Assembly: GCF_026802175.1 (NCBI RefSeq)
Contig: NZ_CP113797.1
Span: 907,026 to 971,025 of the forward strand
DNA length: 64,000 nucleotides
Direction: 5' to 3'
Source: Thermocoleostomius sinensis A174
Lineage (GTDB): Bacteria; Cyanobacteriota; Cyanobacteriia; Elainellales; Elainellaceae
The first letter of the stretch is position 1. The number at the start of each line of letters is the position of its first letter. Shown one piece after another: positions 48,330 through 64,000 of this stretch. The notes under the pieces were generated by a model. That model made no database searches, was not told where the DNA came from, and was given only the letters and a program-made list of their open reading frames with translations. The translations under genes and the position numbers were made by a program.

Positions 48330-48639
48330 GGCAATCTTGACTAACCACGTGTAAGGTTTGAGAAATTTGAGGGGATGAGAGTGTGGCTTACTTCTATCTT
48401 ATTAGAGCAGTGTGAGAGACGTTTGAGGTTATTAAATTTTAGGTTTCACTAAAATACTCTACTCAAGCGTCCCTCTCAATGCTAATCTGATTGAACAGCG
48501 TTGCTAAGTTCACTCTGTTTTTTGAGCAACAGGTTCTTTAGCAACAGGCTCAGTGTTATCTACCTGATCTGGACTAAGTCTGGGCTTGAATTCTAGATTA
48601 AGTTTAGTGTATGCTAGATAAGCGCTTGTTAAAAGACAT
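48330..48639. other. Intergenic region upstream of tRNA-Phe
   Basis: 310 bases between the moeB start and tRNA-Phe. It should hold the promoters of both. No further feature seen. Confidence 0.45.
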
Positions 48640-48712
<73 letters not shown>

Positions 48713-48893
48713 TTCAAAGTAAATCAAGAAAAGCTACGGCTAGTAGGGGTTTTGCTTACCCAAGATTTCTTTACCGGAGATCTTGGGTCAATTTTTTGGG
48801 GGCTTTTGGGGGACTTTGGGGCAAAAACTGGTGGAAAACTGGTGGAAGTGGTGGAGGTGCTATAACGTAACTAGCCACTAGGAAAAGGAGAGG

Positions 48894-50085
48894 ATGATGT
48901 TCTCCAGAACGCCTACGGGTCGAGCCTCCAAAGGTTCTGTCTCTATCATCAATACCCACGATCGCCTCCAGCTTCGCTTCAGCTATGGCGGCAAGCGTCA
49001 CTATGTAACGCTGGGACTACCTGATATCGCCACCAATCGAAAACTGGCTGAATTGAAAGCAGCGGAAATCGAAAAGGATATTCTTTACGAGCGGATTGAT
49101 CCCACCCTCGAAAAGTACAAACCTCAATCTGCTCTCAGTACAATTACACCCACTACACCTACTACCAAAGCCAAGCCGCAGTTGGATGAACTGTGGGCAA
49201 AGTACAGCGAGTTTAAGAAGCCCCAGATCAGTCCTAGCACCTATGTCAAGGACTACATCAAGTGCCGTAACCACATTAACCGCCTGCCCGCTCGTTCTTT
49301 GGACGACGCTCTGCTGATCCGCGACTACCTACTCGAAAATCTCACGCTGGATGCGGCAAAACGCTGCCTGAATTACTTGAAAGCCTGCTGCAACTGGGCA
49401 GTAGAAGATGGGCTAATTGATACGAATCCTTTCGTCAGCATTGAAGATCAAGGCTCCCAAAGGCTTGAGTGAAGATGAGGATATCAATCCCTTTACCAAA
49501 GAGGAACGCGATCGCATTATTCAGGCGTTTGAGACCGATCGCTACTACAAATACTACGCTCCCCTGATTGAATTCCTATTCATGACGGGCTGTAGACCTT
49601 CCGAAGCCGTTGCCCTGCAATGGCAACATATTTCCGCCGATTGTTGTTCTATTCGGTTTGAACAGGCAGTTGTCGATTCCGAAACAGGGCTGGTTTTTAA
49701 GAAGGGACTCAAAACCCAGAAAAAGCGAGCATTTCCTGCCAACGACCGACTGGCTGCACTTTTAGCATCGATCAAACCCGCTCATGCGACTGGGGAAACC
49801 AAAGTTTTTCCATCGCCAAAGGGCACCTGGATCGACGTTCATAATCTGACAAATCGGGGATGGCGCGCTGTTTTATCAAAGTTAGAAGGCATTGAGTACC
49901 GCAAGCTTTACCAGACTCGGCACACCTTTATCACGGCTGCCTTAGAAACAGCAGTGACGATGCCTGATGGCAAAATTAAAATGCTGGATGCCAAAGATGT
50001 AGGCAGGCTGGTTGGTACAAGTCCTAAAATGATTTATGAGCATTATGCTGGACAGGCAAGAGAATTGTTTGTACCTGAGTTTTAG
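48894..50085 (+). pseudogene. Tyrosine-recombinase integrase with one-base frameshift
   Basis: Two frames together give one phage/ICE-type integrase of about 395 residues. The first (48894-49472) has a start with AGGAGAGG upstream, a DNA-binding region FSYGGKRHYVTLGLPD and a core-binding helical domain. The second (in +1 frame, continuing to 50085) has the catalytic domain: Arg I in TGCRPSEAVAL, the box II TRHTF, and Tyr in KMIYEHYAG. The join falls after NPF near 49432, where one extra base (TTTCG) shifts the frame; removing it gives NPF-SALKIKAPKG. All catalytic residues I can place are present, so the break may be recent or a sequencing error. Confidence 0.85.
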
Positions 50086-50139: not shown

Positions 50140-50829
50140 TCACGTTTCGCTAGAGTTGGCTTCATTCTGTTGCCAGTCCCGAATCCAGGCTCGAACATAA
50201 CGTACTACGCCAATATCATCGGTTGTCTGGCGTTGCTGCACAAACTCTGCTAAAACCGCTGGCGAAATCATTGGGAAGGTGGGGCTAAACTCGCACTCCA
50301 CATACCCACCACCTGACCAGCGAGAAATCGTGATGCCTTGCTTGGTGTATCGCCACACTTCCGGCACCTGCAACTGCTGATAGATGCCCATTCGACGAGT
50401 TGAGGAACTGGTGATGTCCACCTCTACGGCTAAATCTGGAGGCAAATCCTCCGGTAGTTCCGGATCTAGCCCTTGCAGTCGATCGGCATTCTGAATAAAA
50501 AAGCAGGAGTCTGGCTCCACGCCCTTCTGCAAATCTTCGCGATCGAGCGTCGTTGAACCATAGCCCTTGATACTCAACCCCAGTTCCTCCACTAGTGCAG
50601 TAATAATCAGTTCCAGCAGCCGATTGATAATTTCATGCAGCTTCGACGGCATCTTAATTTCCAACGTCCCCTCGTCATAAGTCAGGCGGGATGCCCGATG
50701 ATTGCCCAGATCTGCCAGCAATGCCTGATAAGTCTGCCAGCTTACGTTTTCTAGCACCACCTTCTGGGTCACTTTGCCTTGTAGATCGTCTACCTGGAGG
50801 TCATCAATTTGAGCCGGAGTTGTCACCAT
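50140..50829 (-). CDS. Uma2-family (DUF820) nuclease-fold protein
   Basis: 229 residues. The Uma2 fold is a PD-(D/E)XK nuclease relative expanded greatly in cyanobacteria. Visible are RLTYDEGTLEIKMPSKLHE, EPDSCFFI, DLAVEVDITSSSTRRMG and QLQVPEVWRY. The role is unknown; many copies lie in mobile regions. It sits between the integrase and the IS1-type element and is transcribed toward the integrase. Confidence 0.9.
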   Translation of the reverse strand: MVTTPAQIDDLQVDDLQGKVTQKVVLENVSWQTYQALLADLGNHRASRLTYDEGTLEIKMPSKLHEIINRLLELIITALVEELGLSIKGYGSTTLDREDLQKGVEPDSCFFIQNADRLQGLDPELPEDLPPDLAVEVDITSSSTRRMGIYQQLQVPEVWRYTKQGITISRWSGGGYVECEFSPTFPMISPAVLAEFVQQRQTTDDIGVVRYVRAWIRDWQQNEANSSET

Positions 50830-50874: not shown

Positions 50875-51713
50875 GGGTAGTGTTCTAGACCTGTGGATGG
50901 TGCTACATAGAAAGACCAAATTCATAACGGTTTACGAATAATCCAATGACAATGTCGTGCATCCACTCCGACTTCGAAAAACATATCGTTTTACGTGCTA
51001 ATCGTTTAATCCGAGTTCGTAGTGTTAGATGTTTCCGCTCAATCTTCTGGGTGTAATGCTTGCCGATCTCATGCTGGTTCTCCGCCAATATCCGAGTGTA
51101 TCCACCCCAACCATCTGTGTAGAACCGCTTAATGCCAAAGGGCATCAACAACAGCATTAACGATTCCAGCGCAGCATCGGTGTGGGGAGCCAATACATAA
51201 GCCAAAACTTCTCCAGTCCTATGGTCAATTGCATGCCACAACCAGCGTTGCTGTTTCTTGTTGCCCACAAAGCTCCACATTTCATCCATCTCGACTTCAT
51301 CGACCCGCTTAACCAAAACTTCGATTGCCTTTGACTGAGATGCTTGTTTTAGCAATGTTGGGTTAACCTGCTTCAAGTGCCGGGATTTTTTTTAATTCCT
51401 CGATCACCGTTGTCGGGCTAATTTTCAGCACCCGAGCTGTATCCCGGATACCACTGCCATTGACTGCCATGTCCACAATTTGTTGTTTCACCTCTGGCAG
51501 GTAGCCTTGGTAGCAATAGTGTCGAATGAAGGTGCTACGGGAGCACTGGGGATTACGACACTTGTAGCGTTGTTTGCCCTCCTGAGATTTGCCATGTTTG
51601 ACCACATCAGAGCTATTACAAGCAGGACACAAAATAGGTTCTTGAACCATAAAGCATTTGCAGGTAGAGGCAAAACTACTCTATCTCAGTTCCACAGGTC
51701 TAGAACATTACCC
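50875..51713 (-). mobile_element. IS1-family insertion sequence
   Basis: 839 bases bounded by 23-bp inverted ends, 50875-50897 and 51691-51713, that match at 22 of 23 positions (core GTTCTAGACCTGTGGA perfect). Inside lie the two overlapping transposase frames of IS1 layout. Exact outer ends could be a base or two inside these limits. The flanks share no 8-9 bp target duplication. The right end lies within the VirB4-like gene, and the left flank carries no rest of that gene, so a deletion next to the element is likely. Confidence 0.85.
50903..51650 (-). CDS. IS1-family transposase (InsA- and InsB-like frames)
   Basis: Frame 1 (51650 down to 51363, 95 residues) is InsA-like, with a zinc-ribbon CPACNSSDVVKHGK...C-RNPQC and a helix-turn-helix (GSGIRDTARVLKISPTTVIEEL). 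Frame 2 (to 50903) is the InsB-like DDE domain, with EVEMDEMWSFVGNKKQQRWLW, FYTDGWGGY and QKIERKHLTLRTRIKRL. They meet at a run of eight A (coding strand, 51393-51386). Frame 2 is +1 relative to frame 1, and one A fewer would fuse the two into a single reading frame, as many cyanobacterial copies have. Slippage at the run could restore a full transposase. Confidence 0.85.
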
Positions 51714-55985: not shown

Positions 55986-58900
55986 TTGCTGCCGTCTATT
56001 TTTGATACCTGTATTCCCAGAGAAGAGATTCTGGCTGGAGAATTGTCGCTTGATCTCTTTGCCGCGAAACTCCGACTGGTTGTGGAGGGGAGTGCTCCCA
56101 AAGTTTATCAAGATCCTCAAGTCTTCTTTGCCAATACGTTCCCCACCGATGGCTTAAAAACCTTGATTTCAGAGGTGTTTGGTCGGTTGATGGGAGCATC
56201 CGTTGGTTCCCCGATCATCCGCTTGGAGACTAGCTTTGGGGGTGGGAAAACCCATGATGAAATTGCGCTGTGGCACATTGCCAAGCATGGACGGCACATT
56301 GCAGGATTAGAGCGCTTTGTCGAGCATTTGCATTGGATTCCAGACCATCCGATTCAAGTCGCGGCGATCGCCTGTCAGGATCTTGACCCCGTGAATGGAG
56401 TTTATCACTCTGAAACCGGCATCACAACTTATACGCTGTGGGGTGAGATTGCCTATCAAATTGGTGGAGTTGAGGGCTATAGCCTGTTGCGGGGATCGGA
56501 CGAGAAACGGGTCAGCCCTGGCACCGTTGTATTGGAACGATTGACAAAAGGACAACCAACTCTGATTGTGCTCGATGAGATTGCTCGCCATTTACGTGCC
56601 GCAAAAGCAACCCCGGTGGGAAATAGCGACTTGGCAGCCCAGGTCGTCGCCTTTTTGTTCTCGCTGATGGATCTGGCGGCAGCTTGCAACAACCTGGTTT
56701 TTGTCTATGCCCTGGCTTCGTCCTCCGATAGTTTTGGAGAAGAAACGATCGAGATTCGAGAAGCCATTCAAGCCTCTGCTCGGCAGGAGCGTGTCCTTAG
56801 TCCGAGTACAGACGTAGAAATTTACAACATCGTCAAGCAACGAATTTTCAGCAGCGTTAACGATAAAGCAGCAGAAGCAGCGGCACGGGAATACCTGGGA
56901 ACCTATCGAGCCAGTCGCCTCACGTTGCCAGATGGTTGCAAGGATAGTCATTACGCTCAGGTGATTCAGGACAGTTACCCCTTTCACCCAGAGCTATTCA
57001 GCCTGCTGACGAAGAAGATTGCATCCATCCCCAACTTCCAGCGCACGAGAGGGGCTTTGAGACTGTTTGCCAGAGTTGCCCGCTTTCTCTGGAGAGACCC
57101 ATCTGTGTGGACTCCGTTGATTCATCCTCATTGTTTGCCGGTTGGAGTTGACGAGGAGATCACGAGCGACTTAACCTCTCGCTTGGAGCGTCCTTTGATG
57201 CGGTTGCCCATTCAAGCAGATATTTACAATCCAGATGGACGAGAGGCCCACGCTCAACTTCAGGATCAGGAATGGTTGGCGGCAGGCAAACCTCCTTTCT
57301 CTAGTTGGGTGAGCAGAACGATTTTCTTGCACTCGATCAACCAGGGAATTACGGCTGGGATTCGCCGTCCTGAATTGAACTTGTCCCTGCTGATACCAGG
57401 AGTTGAAGTTGGGTTTATGGATATCGCTTTGGAGCGGCTCAGTTCTGTGGCCTGGTATCTGGACAATGACCCGGTGACTTCGATCGCCCGCTTCAAGGAA
57501 GAACCTTCGATCAACAAAATTATTGCTGAAGAAAAGGAGCAAGTCGGGCGCAGTGAGGCAAAGGATGACTTGCGATCGCGCCGTGACACCATCTTTGCTG
57601 ATAAGTTCTTCAAGCTCATTCCGGCTCCAGAGAGTCCAGGAGATGTGGATGATGTGGCTGAACCCGTTGCGCTTTGTCTGATTGACTTTGACGAGGATAC
57701 CGTCAAGAGTTCCACCGATGAACCACCTGGAGTCGTAGAGCGCATCTTCAATAACACCGGAGATTCTGGCAAGTTTCGCACGTTTCGCAATCGGCTGCTG
57801 TTTCTGGTGGCGAATCGGTATGAGTTGGAACGGGCGATCGAGAATGCCAGGGAGTACCGCGCCGTTAAGAACATCCTCAACTCTGCCAATCGACTAGAAG
57901 ACCTCTCAGAAAGCCAGCAGAAGCAGCTTAAGGATAAAGCGGGCAGCATGGATCTGAGCGTGCGAGTGTCGCTTACGAATGCTTATCGCCATTTGTTCTA
58001 CCCGTCCAATGATCCGGTTAAAGCAGCAAAGGGACTGATGCACTATCCCCTTCCAGCTCAAGATGTTGGAGATGTGAAGGGCAAGAATAACCAGCAAGAA
58101 GTGATCCTGAAAGCCCTGAAGGATTGCCAGAAGGTGCGCTCGGAGGATGCCCTGCCTTTTGCTCCTGCCTATGTGCTGCAAAAGGTTTGGCCGTCTGGAT
58201 TGGACTCCTGGACGACAAAGGCACTGCGGGAGGCGTTTGCCAAAGATTTGGGGTTGAATATTTTGCTGGATGCCGAAATCTCAAGACTACGAGATACGAT
58301 TCGGCAGGGTTTGCAGACGGGGCAATGGGATTTGAAAGTCGGTGAGCGGGTGTTCATCAAAACGGATGAAGGCTTGCCTGCATTGCCAGAGACGATCGAA
58401 TTTTCCGAGCGCATGGTGCTGTACCGTCGCGGTATTTTGGAACCTCCCAAACCGAGGGAAATTGAATTGAGTGCCCAGGTGATGCCCAGTACCGAAGCGA
58501 CCAAACCTGTGCGAGTACGTTGGCGGGCACAGGGAGCACTGACCGTTAGTTTGTACCAGGATGGTAACTTGTTGGGGCAAGCTTACCGACCTTCTGATGA
58601 GTACGAAGGGACGATCGCTCAAACCACTGTGTTTCGGGTTGTGGCAGACTACGGCAATGGTGAAACCGCACAAGCAGAGACAATGGCAAAGGTTGTGGTT
58701 TATAACAACGGCGGCACGGGTGGTAGTCCAACGGTTAGCAACGGTTCCACCCTTTTCGCCATCAAGCCAGAGCAGTTTGATTTGGAAGGAACCCCGAACA
58801 GTGTGTTTAGCGGATTAGGCGATCGTGTCCACGATCACAAGGTCAAGGGGATTACGGCGTTAGAACTCTCGGTCAGTCAGGTGATGGATTACCGGAAGCT

Positions 58901-59204
58901 CACAACCGCCCTGCCTTTACTAGCAAAATTCCCCATCCAGATTGATCAAACCGTCACAATTCAAACCGGAGATCAGTTTGTCCGGCTGGAGTATCAGGGA
59001 ACGATGCGAGGCTTTCAGAGTTTTTTGACTCCGACCAATGCTTTGTTGAGCAGTCCCGATGTGCAGGCAAATGTCATGCTGAAGCTAGTAGTGGAGTTTC
59101 CATCCCCTGTGGAGCCAGAAGGGCAGGAAATTCGAGCGATCGCTCAAACATTGAGTCGAAATCCAGTCGATCGCGTAAACTTGATAGCACGAGTAACATA
59201 TTAG
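55986..59204 (+). CDS. DUF499-type large ATPase
   Basis: 1072 residues. The start is TTG at 55986 with AAGGAG ten bases upstream. The P-loop lies near 84-93 in LETSFGGGKTHDE, the GGGKTH form typical of DUF499 (COG1483), and Walker B near 193-200 in LIVLDEIARH. A long helical middle part and a C-terminal beta-rich region (from about 830) follow. DUF499 ATPases are regularly encoded with DUF1156 (COG1743) DNA methylases, which is what stands 3 kb downstream here. By analogy with large ATPases of other modification-based defence systems it may drive or gate the response to foreign DNA. Biochemical role not established. Confidence 0.85.
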   Translation: MLPSIFDTCIPREEILAGELSLDLFAAKLRLVVEGSAPKVYQDPQVFFANTFPTDGLKTLISEVFGRLMGASVGSPIIRLETSFGGGKTHDEIALWHIAKHGRHIAGLERFVEHLHWIPDHPIQVAAIACQDLDPVNGVYHSETGITTYTLWGEIAYQIGGVEGYSLLRGSDEKRVSPGTVVLERLTKGQPTLIVLDEIARHLRAAKATPVGNSDLAAQVVAFLFSLMDLAAACNNLVFVYALASSSDSFGEETIEIREAIQASARQERVLSPSTDVEIYNIVKQRIFSSVNDKAAEAAAREYLGTYRASRLTLPDGCKDSHYAQVIQDSYPFHPELFSLLTKKIASIPNFQRTRGALRLFARVARFLWRDPSVWTPLIHPHCLPVGVDEEITSDLTSRLERPLMRLPIQADIYNPDGREAHAQLQDQEWLAAGKPPFSSWVSRTIFLHSINQGITAGIRRPELNLSLLIPGVEVGFMDIALERLSSVAWYLDNDPVTSIARFKEEPSINKIIAEEKEQVGRSEAKDDLRSRRDTIFADKFFKLIPAPESPGDVDDVAEPVALCLIDFDEDTVKSSTDEPPGVVERIFNNTGDSGKFRTFRNRLLFLVANRYELERAIENAREYRAVKNILNSANRLEDLSESQQKQLKDKAGSMDLSVRVSLTNAYRHLFYPSNDPVKAAKGLMHYPLPAQDVGDVKGKNNQQEVILKALKDCQKVRSEDALPFAPAYVLQKVWPSGLDSWTTKALREAFAKDLGLNILLDAEISRLRDTIRQGLQTGQWDLKVGERVFIKTDEGLPALPETIEFSERMVLYRRGILEPPKPREIELSAQVMPSTEATKPVRVRWRAQGALTVSLYQDGNLLGQAYRPSDEYEGTIAQTTVFRVVADYGNGETAQAETMAKVVVYNNGGTGGSPTVSNGSTLFAIKPEQFDLEGTPNSVFSGLGDRVHDHKVKGITALELSVSQVMDYRKLTTALPLLAKFPIQIDQTVTIQTGDQFVRLEYQGTMRGFQSFLTPTNALLSSPDVQANVMLKLVVEFPSPVEPEGQEIRAIAQTLSRNPVDRVNLIARVTY

Positions 59205-59253
59205 TTCTGTAGGGCTACTGCCCATTGTCTGTCTGTTGTGTTGCCTCCCGTCT

Positions 59254-59682
59254 ATGCAGGAATTTCAGCTTCGCGTTGTTCCAACTGACAATAACAACTT
59301 TGCCCTGGAGTTGTATCAGTGTGCCTATAAGAAGGCAGGCGAGAAGAAGCGCCCTGCGGCGAAGCGGATTGGGCGACTGAGGGGGCAGGCATTAGTACAG
59401 GCACGACAGGCAGTTTATGACTGCTTAAAAACAAACGGCTATGATCCAAAAACGTTGACCAGTTCCCGACAGACCCCTTATACCCTGAGTGAGGAATCGG
59501 GGGTGAATTTGGCTTTACTGTTTCAGACCTTGCAACCACTCTCGAAGCCTGAGCGAATTGCCAATATTGCTGCTGGGGTGCGATCGATGAGCAATGAGGA
59601 ATCGCACTATTGGTTTGCGAAGGTATCGAATGGCAAGCGGAGCCAAGCATTAAGAGCAATTCGGGTATTGCTAGGAGATTGA
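59254..59682 (+). CDS. Small partner of the DUF499 ATPase, family not recognised
   Basis: 142 residues from the ATG at 59254 (MQEFQLRVVPTDNNNFALEL). The first half is beta-rich and basic (KKAGEKKRPAAKRIGRLRG), the second helical with LSKPERIANIAAGVRSMSNEESHYWFAKV. It starts 49 bases after the ATPase stop on the same strand, so it should be co-expressed. I recognise no family. The basic patch would suit nucleic-acid contact, which is inference. Confidence 0.7.
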   Translation: MQEFQLRVVPTDNNNFALELYQCAYKKAGEKKRPAAKRIGRLRGQALVQARQAVYDCLKTNGYDPKTLTSSRQTPYTLSEESGVNLALLFQTLQPLSKPERIANIAAGVRSMSNEESHYWFAKVSNGKRSQALRAIRVLLGD

Positions 59683-59718
59683 GCCATCAACTACCGTCGT
59701 ATTCTGTCCAAGTAGACT

Positions 59719-59979
59719 TCAACGAATGGCATATTCTTTCCAGGGAATAGCGTGAATTGGCACTCTTGCCAGAAAACGAGTAATGTCTTTACGTCCGTAG
59801 TAGGTTGGAATTCCCACGGAATCCTGTGCCATCAGCACTATGGGTATTCCTGGGAAATAGGGTTGAAAGGATCGAACCATCCGCTCTGCCTCAGATGATT
59901 GATTAAGGATGTGTCTTTTAACGATCACGATAGCAAAAGTAACCCCTTGCTCTTTAAGCATCGCACCTTGAAATTTCAT
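59719..59979 (-). CDS. Hypothetical small protein
   Basis: 86 residues. A strong AAGGAGGT lies five bases before the start, on the minus strand, so it is very likely translated. The product has a single hydrophobic strand-like segment (VTFAIVIVKRHIL) and PYFPGIPIVLMAQDSVGIPTYYGR. No family recognised. It is transcribed against the DUF499 locus together with the YjzC-like gene. Confidence 0.65.
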   Translation of the reverse strand: MKFQGAMLKEQGVTFAIVIVKRHILNQSSEAERMVRSFQPYFPGIPIVLMAQDSVGIPTYYGRKDITRFLARVPIHAIPWKEYAIR

Positions 59980-60105
59980 TCATACCTCCTTGACAAAAAC
60001 ATTCCATAGTGGCGGCTGGAAACTTTTGACGACTATTGAGTAGAGGAGTGGCACGAGTTCAAAAAGTTGATGCCACTCCTCCACCGACCAATAATCCAAT
60101 CTGAG

Positions 60106-60294
60106 CTATTTAGAGCCTTTGTGTTTTGTTGGATCAACGAGACGGTAACGTTGACCTGCCTGTGGAGTGGGAGGCAAAGGTTCACCCTTAGTGACCGTCC
60201 TTTCCTCTCCGGTGCCACCACCACGGGAACCCGTAATCTCGTATTGCCCGGAGCGTTGAGCAATTTCGCCAGGACGCTTCAGTTCTTCAGGCAT
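60106..60294 (-). CDS. YjzC-like small protein
   Basis: 62 residues from the ATG at 60294, which has AGGAGA seven bases upstream; a longer frame to 60444 is rejected because it overlaps the divergent gene's start region. The pattern RPGEIAQRSGQYEITG, GGGTGEERTVTKGEPLPPTP and GQRYRLVDPTKH resembles YjzC-type proteins. These small beta-rich proteins have no known function. It is divergent from the XRE/ImmA-IrrE gene, 148 bases apart. Confidence 0.7.
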   Translation of the reverse strand: MPEELKRPGEIAQRSGQYEITGSRGGGTGEERTVTKGEPLPPTPQAGQRYRLVDPTKHKGSK

Positions 60295-60442
60295 CGTAAT
60301 TCTCCTAAATTGAGAGTAAGTTATCAAACTAAACAAATTTTGTCTCGTTCGATATTCATACGCTAGCATAGAAAAAAGAAAAGTTGTCAAATTCGGATAG
60401 GATGGTTTTGGATGCGTTTGATTATCGAAAGTCAGGAGGGTC

Positions 60443-61651
60443 ATGAATTATGCAGAACTAGGTCGCCGGATTCGCCAAGCTAGAGAGGAGGCTACCTTGT
60501 CTCAAGATGTTGTGGCACAGCATCTTGGATTGACTCGTTCTGCTGTGTCGTTAATTGAAAGCGGCAAACGGAAGGTAGATAGTCTAGAGCTTCGTTCTTT
60601 TTCTCAGTTAGTTGGTAGGAGCGTTGCCTTCTTCCTGGATGATGAAACAGCTACAGTTAAGGCTCAGTCTTTAGATGACGAAGATCCAACCCAGATTCTT
60701 TTCAGCGCCAATCAGGTTGTAGATATTTCACAGGATCGTTCTCAAATCGAACGATTCGCACAGTTTCATCGAGAGTTCGTGCATCTTGCTCGAATGCTAA
60801 ACCGAATGCCAGGTCAATGTTCTACTCAGCCGCGTTATAACGTCTACAAGCCGACTCCAGCGGCTGCAAGATGGATGGCAAATCAGGAACGTGCTCGGTT
60901 AGGATTGCCGCTTTCTAGTCCTATCCAGGATATGCGGAGCATCCTGCAAAGCCAGGGTGTGAGAGTCATGGGATGGGAGCTGGTCACACCAAAGCTCGGA
61001 GGATGTTTTATTTTTTCGCCAACGCTTGGTTCATTTGTCCTGGTTAAACGCAATCTGAGAGACTATTCAGCCAATATGGTCAACTTTGTATTGGCTCATG
61101 AGTATTGCCACGACCTGATTCATCGGCAGCAGAAGGGGATTACTTGTGATCCCAGCAGGCATTATCGTAAGCCTGAGGAGTATTTTGCTCAATGGTTTGC
61201 CGCCAATTTTTTGATGCCAGAAGAAGCTTTGGTTCCTCGTCTACAGAGATATCTGGAGCAGGGTGAAGGGGTGATTACGCCTGAAACTGTGATGAACTTG
61301 GCGCTTGACTTTGGTGTGAGTTATACAGCGATGTTGAATCGGATGTCGAGTAAGGGGGTGGAACTGATTGATGCAGAGACTCGTAAGCAATTAGAAAAAG
61401 CAAAAGTGACCAATCTACTCGTTCAGATAGGGCGTACTATTCCACGCTTTGAAATCAATCAATTTCCTGTGGAGTATGTGGACATGGCATTTGAAGCATA
61501 TAGCCTGGGGCAGATTAGTTTGGGTAAGTTGGCAGAATTGTTAGACGTACCGATCGAGGAGGCAAAGGCGCAATTAGAGAAACGTGGCGTGCCAATTGAT
61601 CTAGGTGTGAGCAGTGAGGATGATTTGTTCCGTGACATCGAGAACGCCTGA
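60443..61651 (+). CDS. XRE-HTH / ImmA-IrrE metallopeptidase regulator
   Basis: 402 residues. Residues 6-62 are an XRE helix-turn-helix (LGRRIRQAREEATLSQDVVAQHLGLTRSA pattern). The middle carries the ImmA/IrrE zinc peptidase with HExxH as AHEYCHDL near 217-224, followed by EEYFAQWFAANFLMP. Such proteins repress target genes and are relieved by, or carry out, cleavage in response to DNA stress or phage. AGGAGGG lies just before the ATG. Its 3' end overlaps the DUF3368 gene by about 38 bases, so the two are translationally coupled. Confidence 0.92.
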   Translation: MNYAELGRRIRQAREEATLSQDVVAQHLGLTRSAVSLIESGKRKVDSLELRSFSQLVGRSVAFFLDDETATVKAQSLDDEDPTQILFSANQVVDISQDRSQIERFAQFHREFVHLARMLNRMPGQCSTQPRYNVYKPTPAAARWMANQERARLGLPLSSPIQDMRSILQSQGVRVMGWELVTPKLGGCFIFSPTLGSFVLVKRNLRDYSANMVNFVLAHEYCHDLIHRQQKGITCDPSRHYRKPEEYFAQWFAANFLMPEEALVPRLQRYLEQGEGVITPETVMNLALDFGVSYTAMLNRMSSKGVELIDAETRKQLEKAKVTNLLVQIGRTIPRFEINQFPVEYVDMAFEAYSLGQISLGKLAELLDVPIEEAKAQLEKRGVPIDLGVSSEDDLFRDIENA

Positions 61652-62228
61652 ACCTGAATCGTCACCCATCATTTTTGATAACACTGTCCTGAGCAACTTT
61701 GCTCTGGCGCAGTCTTTTGAAATATTACGGAGGCTCTACGAAGGTAGAGCCTTTATTTGTAGAGCGGTGTTGCAGGAAATTCAAGCAGGGATAGAAAGTG
61801 GTTGGAAATATCCTCAACTGCGGAGTAGAACCCGACTACAGGCAGTTAATCAGGCGATCGAAGCAGGTTGGCTACAATTTCCGGATAATGATGTAGATCC
61901 CAGTGATGAAGTTTTAGAGTTGAGACTGGCTTTGGAGTATGGTCAACGGTTTGGGGCAGGAGAAGCAGAGGCAATGGCGATCGCTCGTACTCGTGGTTGG
62001 GTATTGGCAACGGATGACGGTGCAGCAAGAAGATTTGCTCAAGAGCGAAGTATTCGCCTTACGGGAAGCTTGGGCATTCTGATCAAGGCGGCTCAGCAAG
62101 GAGTTGTTCGGTTAACCGAGGCGGATGCACTCCATGCTCGAATGATTGATGAAGGCTATCGCTCGCCTCTCCCCTACGAAAACGGTATTTCTGGCTATCT
62201 CAATCGGCAACAAACAAGGGATAACTGA
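61614..62228 (+). CDS. DUF3368 PIN-like protein
   Basis: About 204 residues if the GTG at 61614 is used; ATG at 61620 or GTG at 61632 are equally possible. The PIN-type acidic residues appear in IIFDNTVLSNFA, in GAGEAEAMAIA and in LATDDGAARRFA. PIN proteins are metal-dependent ribonucleases, many being toxins of toxin-antitoxin pairs. Here the gene overlaps an XRE/ImmA-IrrE gene, a pairing that recurs in bacterial genomes and behaves like a regulated toxin module. It lies four bases before the methylase gene. Confidence 0.85.
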   Translation: MRMICSVTSRTPEPESSPIIFDNTVLSNFALAQSFEILRRLYEGRAFICRAVLQEIQAGIESGWKYPQLRSRTRLQAVNQAIEAGWLQFPDNDVDPSDEVLELRLALEYGQRFGAGEAEAMAIARTRGWVLATDDGAARRFAQERSIRLTGSLGILIKAAQQGVVRLTEADALHARMIDEGYRSPLPYENGISGYLNRQQTRDN

Positions 62229-62231
62229 CCC

Positions 62232-64000
62232 ATGACTGACTCCACTCCCAAACGCAAACCCGTCTTCATCGAAAAAATTATGCCTGTGACGCTGCTGAAT
62301 GAGCAGGTGTATTACGAGCATGGGGGCAATCCCTTCAAAGGCTTGCATCGGTGGTATTCACGGAAGCCGTTGTCGTTTAGTCGAGCGAGTGTGTTGGGAT
62401 CGCTGCTACCTCTGCGGATGTGACGATCGAGGAGTTTGAGTATCTGCTGGGGCTGAATCGTCGGGTGGCGGGAATGCAGGACAAGACGACGAAGCTGTAT
62501 AAGACTCCGCCTTCGCCCGATCGCATCCAGAAGGTGCAGGAACTCTGTGAGCAAATGTGGGGCACGAAAACGCCAACGGTGTTGGATGCGTTTGCGGGGG
62601 GCGGCAGCATTCCGTTTGAGGCGGCGCGGTATGGGTTGAATGTGCTGGCTTCGGATCTGAACCCGGTGGCAGTGGTGACAATGAAGGCGGCGATCGAGTA
62701 TCCGCTGAAGTTTGGGGCAGATCTTCAGGTGGAGATTGATAAGTGGGTGAAGTGGGTGGGGGATGAGGCAGAAAAACGTCTTGCCCCGTTTTTTCCATCA
62801 TTGCCAGGGGAGAAAGTTCAAGCTTACTTCTGGGCACATACAGTCATGTGTCCTAACTGTCAGTCTGTTGTTCCTTTAAGTCCTACCTGGTGGGTTGATA
62901 AATCTCCTGCCTCTGCAAAAAAAGGTGAATGGTGTGCTGTTTACCCCATTTCTGATCTAGAAAACAAACGAGTTTGTTTTGAAATGATTCGAGGTAAAAA
63001 GGGTTCAGCAACAACCATACAAACATCTACTGGAGAATATGATCCATTAACACAAGCAACAATTAGTCGAGGTACTGGAAGATGTTTGAACTGTGGAAAT
63101 ATTATTGAGGACGAGGCTATTAAATCATTTGCTCAGTCTTGCGGGTTGGGTGATCAATTATATGCAGTAGCTTTTAAGAAGAGTAATGGGTCTCTTCAAT
63201 TTAGAATTCCCGTAGACCTAGATTTTGAAGGTATCCAAAAAGCTGAAGAGTCTCTATCTAAAAAAAGGATTGAGTGGGAGTTATCTGGTTTCATTCCTAC
63301 CCAGGAAATTCCTTCTAATACTCACAGGGGTACAGATATGTATCTCTATGGAATCTACCATTGGCAGAAATTATTCAATGACCGCCAACTTCTGACATTA
63401 GCAACCTATGTAGAGCTTATTAACGAAGCAAAGGAAGAAATTCAAAAAAGTTATGAATCTGGAGTAGCTCAGGTTTTGTTAGCCTATTTAGCCCTTGCTT
63501 TTGATCGTTGCGTTGACCGCAATTCTCGTTTGGGACATTGGAGTTCTGCTTCTAATATGTCTTTTCATGGTGCTTTGGCACAGCATTCCCTGAACTTAAT
63601 GTGGAATTATTATGAAACTACAGGAAGCTCTAGATTGTGGCAATCGTATTCTCAGAGCATAAGAAATGAATATAGTGATCTATGCTCTTTATTAGATGTC
63701 AGTAGTCAGTTTAATATTCTTGTTGATAAAGACTCTGCTGTTGATATTCAGGTTTCTCTAGCGTCTGCTGATAGCTTAATTCATATTGCTAACAAATCTA
63801 TTGATGTAGTTGTAACTGATCCTCCTTACTATGACGCAATTAGGTATGGTGAAATTTCTGATTTCTTCTATGTCTGGCTGAGAGCAAATCTGTTAGATAT
63901 TTTTCCAAATCTATTTTTCAATGAATTAACTGATAAAGATAATGAAGCGATCGCCAACCCTGGACGATTCCGCAACATGGGAGCCTCGCCCGAAGAACTT
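62232..64000 (+). pseudogene. DUF1156 DNA methylase, frameshifted and cut by the window end
   Basis: Adenine-specific-type methyltransferase of the DUF1156 (COG1743) family. The N-terminus (FIEKIMPVTLLNEQVYYEHG, then HRWYSRKP) is the DUF1156 signature. At 62401-62423 one missing base changes the frame (first frame ends GSLLPLRM; the other resumes SADVTIEEFEYLLG). From 62411 the second frame is open, without any stop, to 64000. It shows the SAM motif DAFAGGGSIPFEAA, two zinc-ribbon halves (CPNC and CLNC) and the catalytic DPPY in VVVTDPPYYDAIRYG. Positions from about 62880 to 63945 are much richer in A and T than the flanks. If the frameshift is an assembly error, the gene is intact. Confidence 0.85.

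Follow-up and report, generated by a model that had tools for sequence, protein, structure and literature searches.

A mobile, probable protease-fused antitoxin/PIN module in a cargo gap of a DUF7680-containing Hma/BREX-Related operon from a cyanobacterium

The DNA analyzed here is a 64-kb stretch (hereafter the window, G000:C1:907026-971025) of the cyanobacterium Thermocoleostomius sinensis A174, whose genome forms a single contig of 5.81 Mb. Its right end carries the genes that the initial annotation had named, all recovered on the plus strand from open reading frames (ORFs), Pfam and PADLOC: a DUF499 ATPase gene, a gene encoding a partner of 142 amino acids (aa), an XRE/ImmA-IrrE regulator gene (immA) overlapping a PIN gene (pin), and a DUF1156 methylase gene (hmaB). 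As that annotation had anticipated, the locus ends past the window: the methylase gene is followed by two PD-(D/E)XK-like genes, a 124-aa gene and then an HKD/PLD-SNF2 helicase gene, up to G000:C1:977112. Since the operon reaches this PLD-nuclease/SNF2-helicase, it is a complete Hma or DUF499-centred BREX-Related (BR) system. Among the BR types it comes closest to Type-2, with DUF7680 in place of DUF3780. This identity corroborates the proposal of a modification-based defence locus. Between the DUF7680 and methylase genes lies the immA-pin module that is the main subject of this work. Coordinates without prefix (Table 1) are positions in the window; the downstream stretch is L002 (G000:C1:960000-979999), and other L numbers designate retrieved loci.

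The association of an ATPase, a methylase and a helicase defines the Hma system of PADLOC (PMC8565338), and Hma-type loci were later re-described as DUF499-centred BR systems (PMC12839542); the co-occurrence of DUF499 and DUF1156 invoked at the outset is therefore established in both sources. The locus shares with Hma the three core proteins (HmaA helicase, HmaB methylase and HmaC ATPase), all matched by PADLOC models. It differs from Hma by an added DUF7680 gene, by cargo in both gaps of the operon and by a helicase that fits PLD_Helicase and BrxH-type models better than HmaA; the PbeA profile spans the N-terminus of this helicase, which also has an HEK...SGSNN signature. The likeness to Type-2 BR (PMC12839542) includes a DUF499 ATPase with an FnIII-like domain, an amino-methylase with DPPY, an HKD domain N-terminal to the SNF2 helicase and a small gene right after DUF499. 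The HKD domain was found with PADLOC profiles and the FnIII-like domain in a model: the AlphaFold prediction of the DUF499 C-terminus (pLDDT 72) has a beta-sandwich followed by an alpha/beta domain, and its structure matches include fibronectin modules. The ATPase also carries GGGKTH and LIVLDE motifs, and HmaB has the catalytic motifs DPPY and DAFAGGG. In Type-2 BR, a standalone DUF3780 is present in 98% of members and an FnIII-like domain precedes the RRM-like DUF499 C-terminus in about half (PMC12839542), whereas the small gene of the window encodes DUF7680. A helicase, PLD or DUF3780 gene had been suggested as something to look for downstream; the first two are found there as one PLD-SNF2 effector, whereas DUF3780 has no match in the window's own genome, and we therefore call the system Type-2-like and not Type-2. 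Type-3 BR systems have PglZ and iSTAND genes and a helicase without nuclease fusion (PMC12839542); here, no PglZ-type match was found among the locus genes and the helicase is fused to a nuclease.

The DUF7680 gene comes after DUF499 in cyanobacterial relatives too, and the core order is the same in cyanobacteria and in a cargo-free Rhodococcus operon. DUF7680 is encoded by 24 of the 292 sampled cyanobacterial genomes and DUF3780 by five. Four of the five DUF3780 loci have the order DUF499-DUF3780-gap-methylase-gap-helicase; in the fifth, the methylase was undetected and the helicase directly follows DUF3780. We considered DUF7680 as a short DUF3780 and set this possible relationship aside: only position is in its favour, the last parts of the two align in register but their profile comparison is weak (P=0.08 at best), and the AlphaFold model of DUF7680 is unusable (pLDDT 50). 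Plasmids of Rhodococcus and of haloarchaea likewise have a DUF7680-like gene after DUF499, and our literature search found no mention of DUF7680. One genome (G233) carries two near-identical operons (L049, L050) that are reordered as methylase-helicase-DUF499-DUF7680.

Table 1. Features of the window and of the downstream part of the operon.
Feature	Position	Strand	Basis
tRNA-Phe, possible left insertion site	48639..48713	+	ARAGORN
Tyrosine integrase in two frames (48894-49472, 49417-50085), probably broken	48894..50085	+	ORFs
HmaC / DUF499 AAA+ ATPase, C-terminal Ig/FnIII-like sandwich and alpha/beta domain	55986..59204	+	Pfam DUF499 1e-25; PADLOC HmaC 1.1e-94
DUF7680 protein, 142 aa, second core-operon gene	59254..59682	+	Pfam DUF7680 6.5e-47
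86-aa ORF in slot 1	59719..59979	-	ORF; no Pfam match
yjzC-like small gene, divergent from immA	60106..60294	-	Homologues in the equivalent position of L031-L034, L097, L098
Operator-like palindrome, GTTYGANNATCRAAC type	60347..60361	-	15-mer scoring
Operator-like palindrome, 12 bp before immA start	60416..60430	+	15-mer scoring
XRE - ImmA/IrrE zincin - UPF0175 fusion (immA)	60443..61651	+	Pfam HTH_3, Peptidase_M78, UPF0175 (1.3e-7, over cut-off)
PIN-domain (DUF3368/PDC-S70 type) putative RNase toxin, overlaps immA end	61635..62228	+	PADLOC PDC-S70 3.6e-19
HmaB / DUF1156 DNA methylase	62232..64000, running past window to G000:C1:972099	+	Pfam DUF1156; PADLOC HmaB 9.4e-77 (full second frame)
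HKD/PLD-SNF2 helicase, 1080 aa	G000:C1:973870-977112		PADLOC PLD_Helicase 7e-74; HmaA 8.4e-59

The regulator had been described as an XRE/ImmA protein, and both the XRE and IrrE domains are indeed present; this description was incomplete, since the protein also ends with a UPF0175 domain. Proteins of the UPF0175 family (COG2886) are known as antitoxins of PIN toxins, and fusions of XRE with COG2856 beside PIN genes were described in 2009 (Makarova, PMC2701414). Therefore, the ImmA-PIN pair looks like a toxin-antitoxin (TA) module, with antitoxin and PIN toxin genes adjacent as in the UPF0175-PIN type II layout. The COG2856-Xre/PIN and COG2886/UPF0175-PIN pairs of that work, located on plasmids and islands, combine the same families in an operon; in the window, the XRE-zincin protein instead carries the UPF0175 antitoxin as a C-terminal fusion. 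HEYCH and other zincin residues are invariant in eight ImmA homologues, and D15, E48, E112 and D127 in nine PIN homologues. From its domains, the XRE-zincin-UPF0175 protein is likely a protease-fused antitoxin and autorepressor.

In the window and in six further loci, the module is accompanied by a small yjzC-like gene in divergent orientation to immA and at a conserved spacing (the L097 copy gives a weak Pfam YjzC match, below cut-off). The region between these genes, mostly about 150 bp long, contains 15-bp GTTYGANNATCRAAC-type palindromes, one of them 10-21 bp before immA. With a consensus built from related copies, the two palindromes of the window are the only 15-mers scoring at least 12 of 13 in its 64 kb, and such operator-like sites are also present in L035 and L036, two loci that did not contribute to the consensus. 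In all five copies carried by BR operons, immA-pin is oriented toward the methylase, and the distance between the pin stop and the start of hmaB is -4 to +34 bp (for L098, counted to the scar copy described below). This proximity and orientation make co-transcription of hmaB with immA-pin likely.

We compared 25 cyanobacterial operons (including that of the window) and the Rhodococcus one. The DUF499-DUF7680 junction is mostly closed, with few exceptions. Cargo is found in two gaps. Gap 1 (slot 1), between the DUF7680 and methylase genes, spans about 0.3 to 13 kb; gap 2 (slot 2), between the methylase and helicase genes, varies from 32 bp to about 4 kb. In the five nearest relatives of the window, the cargo of gap 1 is IetAS. 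This cargo was recognized in Leptolyngbya boryana (confirmed with hidden Markov models), in Leptolyngbya NIES-3755 (84% nucleotide identity to the L. boryana copy) and, by sequence resemblance, in three genomes that belong to the same family as the window. Elsewhere, its cargo consists of DarTG with PemK/RHH and PIN modules, PemK/RHH, PD-(D/E)XK, PIN or VapBC pairs and, in Nostoc, multiubiquitin-E2-ThiF, and it is nearly empty in some operons. In Pseudanabaena biceps, gap 2 harbors a PD-Lambda-2 defence gene (L036:14733-16252; B subunit 3.1e-145) with a small HigB-like partner.

The comparison of P. biceps with P. galeata illustrates cargo exchange. Their DUF499, DUF7680 and helicase genes have about 93-95% nucleotide identity, but their cargo 1 (ImmA-PIN versus PemK/RHH) and cargo 2 are wholly different; identity ends at the DUF7680 stop codon, returns at the methylase start and, after gap 2, returns again at the helicase start. 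In several pairs of operons, the methylase genes have ends that are about 90-98% identical and a middle that is about 67-77% identical, a pattern expected for exchange of the target-recognition region. Furthermore, duplicates of the methylase 5' end lie between older and newer cargo on two Nostoc plasmids (141-146 bp; L098:17808-17953, L101:18082-18227), and a 65-bp duplicate is found in Leptolyngbya BL0902 (L104:16303-16367). These duplicates may be scars left as one cargo after another was added at the start of the methylase gene. Judging from these sequence comparisons, both gaps act as sockets for exchangeable secondary defence genes that are swapped at gene boundaries.

A search made without BR genes gave ten known copies of the module (the window, L031-L037 and two Nostoc plasmids). 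Half of them are located in gap 1 of a BR operon: the window, UBA8803, P. biceps, N. linckia and N. commune SO-36. Two (L033, L034) are beside multiubiquitin cassettes, with no BR genes in the retrieved DNA, and three are elsewhere: L031, L035 (near parA/parB) and L037 (immA broken). Hosts of the module outside BR operons are Oscillatoria, Xenococcaceae and Hormoscilla, together with Calothrix and Nostoc, where it adjoins multiubiquitin cassettes. Because the search used no BR genes, finding five of ten copies in one gap is far above random placement, an informal estimate on a non-random sampling. The order of four genes noted initially does occur more than once, at five loci in separate lineages. 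It is not a conserved unit: 20 of the 25 cyanobacterial operons are devoid of the ImmA-PIN pair and mostly have other TA or defence genes in the gap, and the pair also exists outside the operon, so that a conserved four-gene system is ruled out. On the core-gene tree, the five carriers require five changes, and the window groups with G317 within a clade whose other members carry IetAS; the copy nearest to its ImmA does not belong to a BR operon. The five changes for five carriers and this nearest non-operon copy rule out that the pair was inherited vertically along with the operon. As read from the core-gene tree and these locations, the module moves on its own and has entered gap 1 repeatedly.

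More distant XRE-ImmA proteins (about 30% identical) were observed in some 25 of the 292 cyanobacterial genomes (L065-L088). Nearly all the full-length copies examined are directly followed by a gene of roughly 180 aa that is PIN-like by eye and without Pfam PIN match; no UPF0175 tail was detected by Pfam in these proteins.

Multiubiquitin-E2-ThiF cassettes are found back to back with XRE-ImmA genes in five loci (L097:14448-16855, L098, L101, L033, L034), and on three Nostoc plasmids such a cassette, whole or partial, is nested within the DUF499 operon. A COG2856/Xre TA locus linked to the multiubiquitin cassette was previously reported (PMC4963859); the ImmA-PIN module likewise lies beside multiubiquitin-E2-ThiF in Nostoc and Calothrix, sometimes in the BR gap, whereas the window is devoid of multiubiquitin genes.

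A back-up role of ImmA-PIN, as first suggested, is a reasonable hypothesis. We favor, as the more probable reading, that it is an autonomous and probably single-stranded DNA (ssDNA)-triggered toxin/controller in a restriction-modification (RM)-like system, where it would serve as a back-up through abortive infection and might also control the methylase. HmaB would methylate self DNA, its target-recognition region specifying the sites; HmaC and the DUF7680 protein would be in charge of scanning and licensing, and the HKD/PLD-SNF2 helicase would destroy unmarked DNA. Socket 1 would have received a self-contained module made of the yjzC-like gene, the shared operators, XRE-ImmA-UPF0175 and PIN. 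The fusion protein would repress the divergent promoter via its XRE domain and restrain the PIN RNase via UPF0175. The zincin would become active on a signal of infection, for which ssDNA is the likeliest candidate given CapP and PprI/IrrE, and the fusion would then cleave itself; this would derepress immA-pin-hmaB and free PIN, which would cut RNA and stop growth if the DNA-restriction layer fails. The sequences themselves show which genes and motifs are present, that the operators are conserved, that the module is independently mobile and was inserted repeatedly, and that it sits directly before hmaB; the enzymatic activities, the trigger, self-cleavage, co-transcription and phage protection are inferences.

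This scenario has precedents. Upon activation by ssDNA, the ImmA-like proteases PprI and CapP cut helix-turn-helix (HTH) repressors (PMC10904395, PMC13373217), CapH and CapP control adjacent immune operons including CBASS and Bub, and another controller pair sensing ssDNA or DNA damage belongs to an anti-phage TA system with a VapC-like protein (PMC13373217). The module shares with CapH-CapP and PprI/IrrE-DdrO an XRE repressor and an ImmA-like zincin beside a defence operon, and the CapH-CapP-type features seen in the window are the HTH, the zincin motif and the conserved operator-like sites. It differs from them by its single fused chain, its antitoxin tail and its PIN gene, and an ssDNA trigger is only putative here.

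Several observations weigh against this toxin/controller reading. The Pfam DUF3368 and PIN matches of the PIN protein are below cut-offs, and a scan for promoters and terminators near the module gave no more matches than shuffled sequences. Functionless hitch-hiking of the module is possible, because TA modules are abundant in cyanobacteria. Three further points concern the window copy. First, the hmaB frame is broken near codon 61 (frames 62232-62423 and 62420 onward), whereas the five relatives compared have one open frame. Second, the integrase gene is split; with the hmaB break, this means that the copy may be decaying or wrongly sequenced there. Third, a PD-(D/E)XK cargo gene downstream of the methylase (L002:12075-12728) reads EAY where a relative has EAK, and its product may therefore be catalytically dead.

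Among the alternatives, it is conceivable, although we consider it rather unlikely, that ImmA-PIN is simply a TA module of the addiction kind, which landed in a gap where a plasmid-type defence operon tolerates insertions; it would stabilize this operon while being uncoupled from restriction and phage sensing. Many unrelated TA modules are indeed hosted by the same gaps, the pair is also present near parA/parB (L035) and at unrelated places, most relatives are devoid of it, and a TA locus stabilizing the multiubiquitin cassette was proposed earlier (PMC4963859). However, half of the known copies are in one gap, in separate branches and with a constant orientation directly before hmaB, and the other cargo of this gap includes dedicated anti-phage machinery (IetAS, DarTG) and not addiction modules alone.

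To a similarly doubtful degree, the module could mainly be a DNA-damage-responsive regulator, like CapH-CapP or BrxR, which places hmaB, with or without the multiubiquitin cassette opposite, under ImmA, PIN being secondary. The divergent yjzC-immA promoter region with shared palindromes, the tight packing of immA-pin-hmaB, the position of the same region facing multiubiquitin-E2-ThiF in L033, L034 and L097, the matches of the PADLOC capP and capH profiles to the fusion protein and the control of adjacent immune operons by CapH and CapP (PMC13373217) all point in this direction. However, slot-1 cargo is often on the minus strand elsewhere, and hmaB must therefore manage there without such control; furthermore, pin is kept with intact catalytic residues in nearly all copies. 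More speculatively still, the yjzC/XRE-ImmA-UPF0175/PIN module might be a plug-in damage sensor that wires the BR methylase and multiubiquitin conjugation to one divergent promoter and a toxin, self-cleavage derepressing the defence genes and releasing the RNase.

It is improbable that the window copy is a non-functional degenerate island whose gene order says little on function: despite the broken hmaB and split integrase, the DUF499, DUF7680, immA, pin and helicase genes are full-length with intact motifs, the second hmaB frame overlaps the stop of the first (ATGTGA) and contains both catalytic motifs, and an assembly error could also be involved. With this overlapping restart and these motifs, a translational restart, decay or an assembly error are all possible for hmaB.

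The embedding of extra defences in Hma operons is known from a preprint (Payne et al. 2024), as relayed in PMC12255303 and PMC12988326. According to what these sources relay, its Hma-embedded/PDC candidates, obtained by guilt-by-embedding, share with our locus the presence of secondary defence genes within an Hma-type operon, and the PIN protein of the window matches PDC-S70. The core system, PDC-S70 and this embedding are therefore already known, and the locus is a variant of a known theme and not a new system. Three features are apparently new: the subtype with DUF7680, the pairing of two sockets that show clean swaps and scars, and the repeated occurrence of a protease-fused antitoxin/PIN module in front of the methylase. 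Such operons suggest an upgrade route for RM-like systems, in which the core would stay constant while the methylase specificity region and two cargo sockets vary, and the sockets offer compact places to seek more cyanobacterial defence genes. The fused protease-antitoxin provides a directly testable link from phage-induced DNA damage to an RNase toxin and methylase expression. DUF7680 also gains a concrete context: in a BR subtype that is common in cyanobacteria, it is the second gene of the core.

Concerning the surroundings of the operon, its location in an integrated element is plausible and unproven: integrases lie beside tRNA-Phe and, on the other side of the locus, tRNA-Met (a second, full-length integrase, L003:884-2095), but no att repeat matching the tRNA-Phe site was found downstream. 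No empty site was found in the relatives compared, because the flanking genes moeB and glmS are not adjacent in them. Searches of viral contigs for DUF7680 and ImmA, and of phage records for ImmA and window-type DUF499, gave no copies. Between the split integrase and the defence operon, the window carries a gene matching PADLOC PDC-S17 (50140-50829) and an IS1-type transposase gene (50903-51650).

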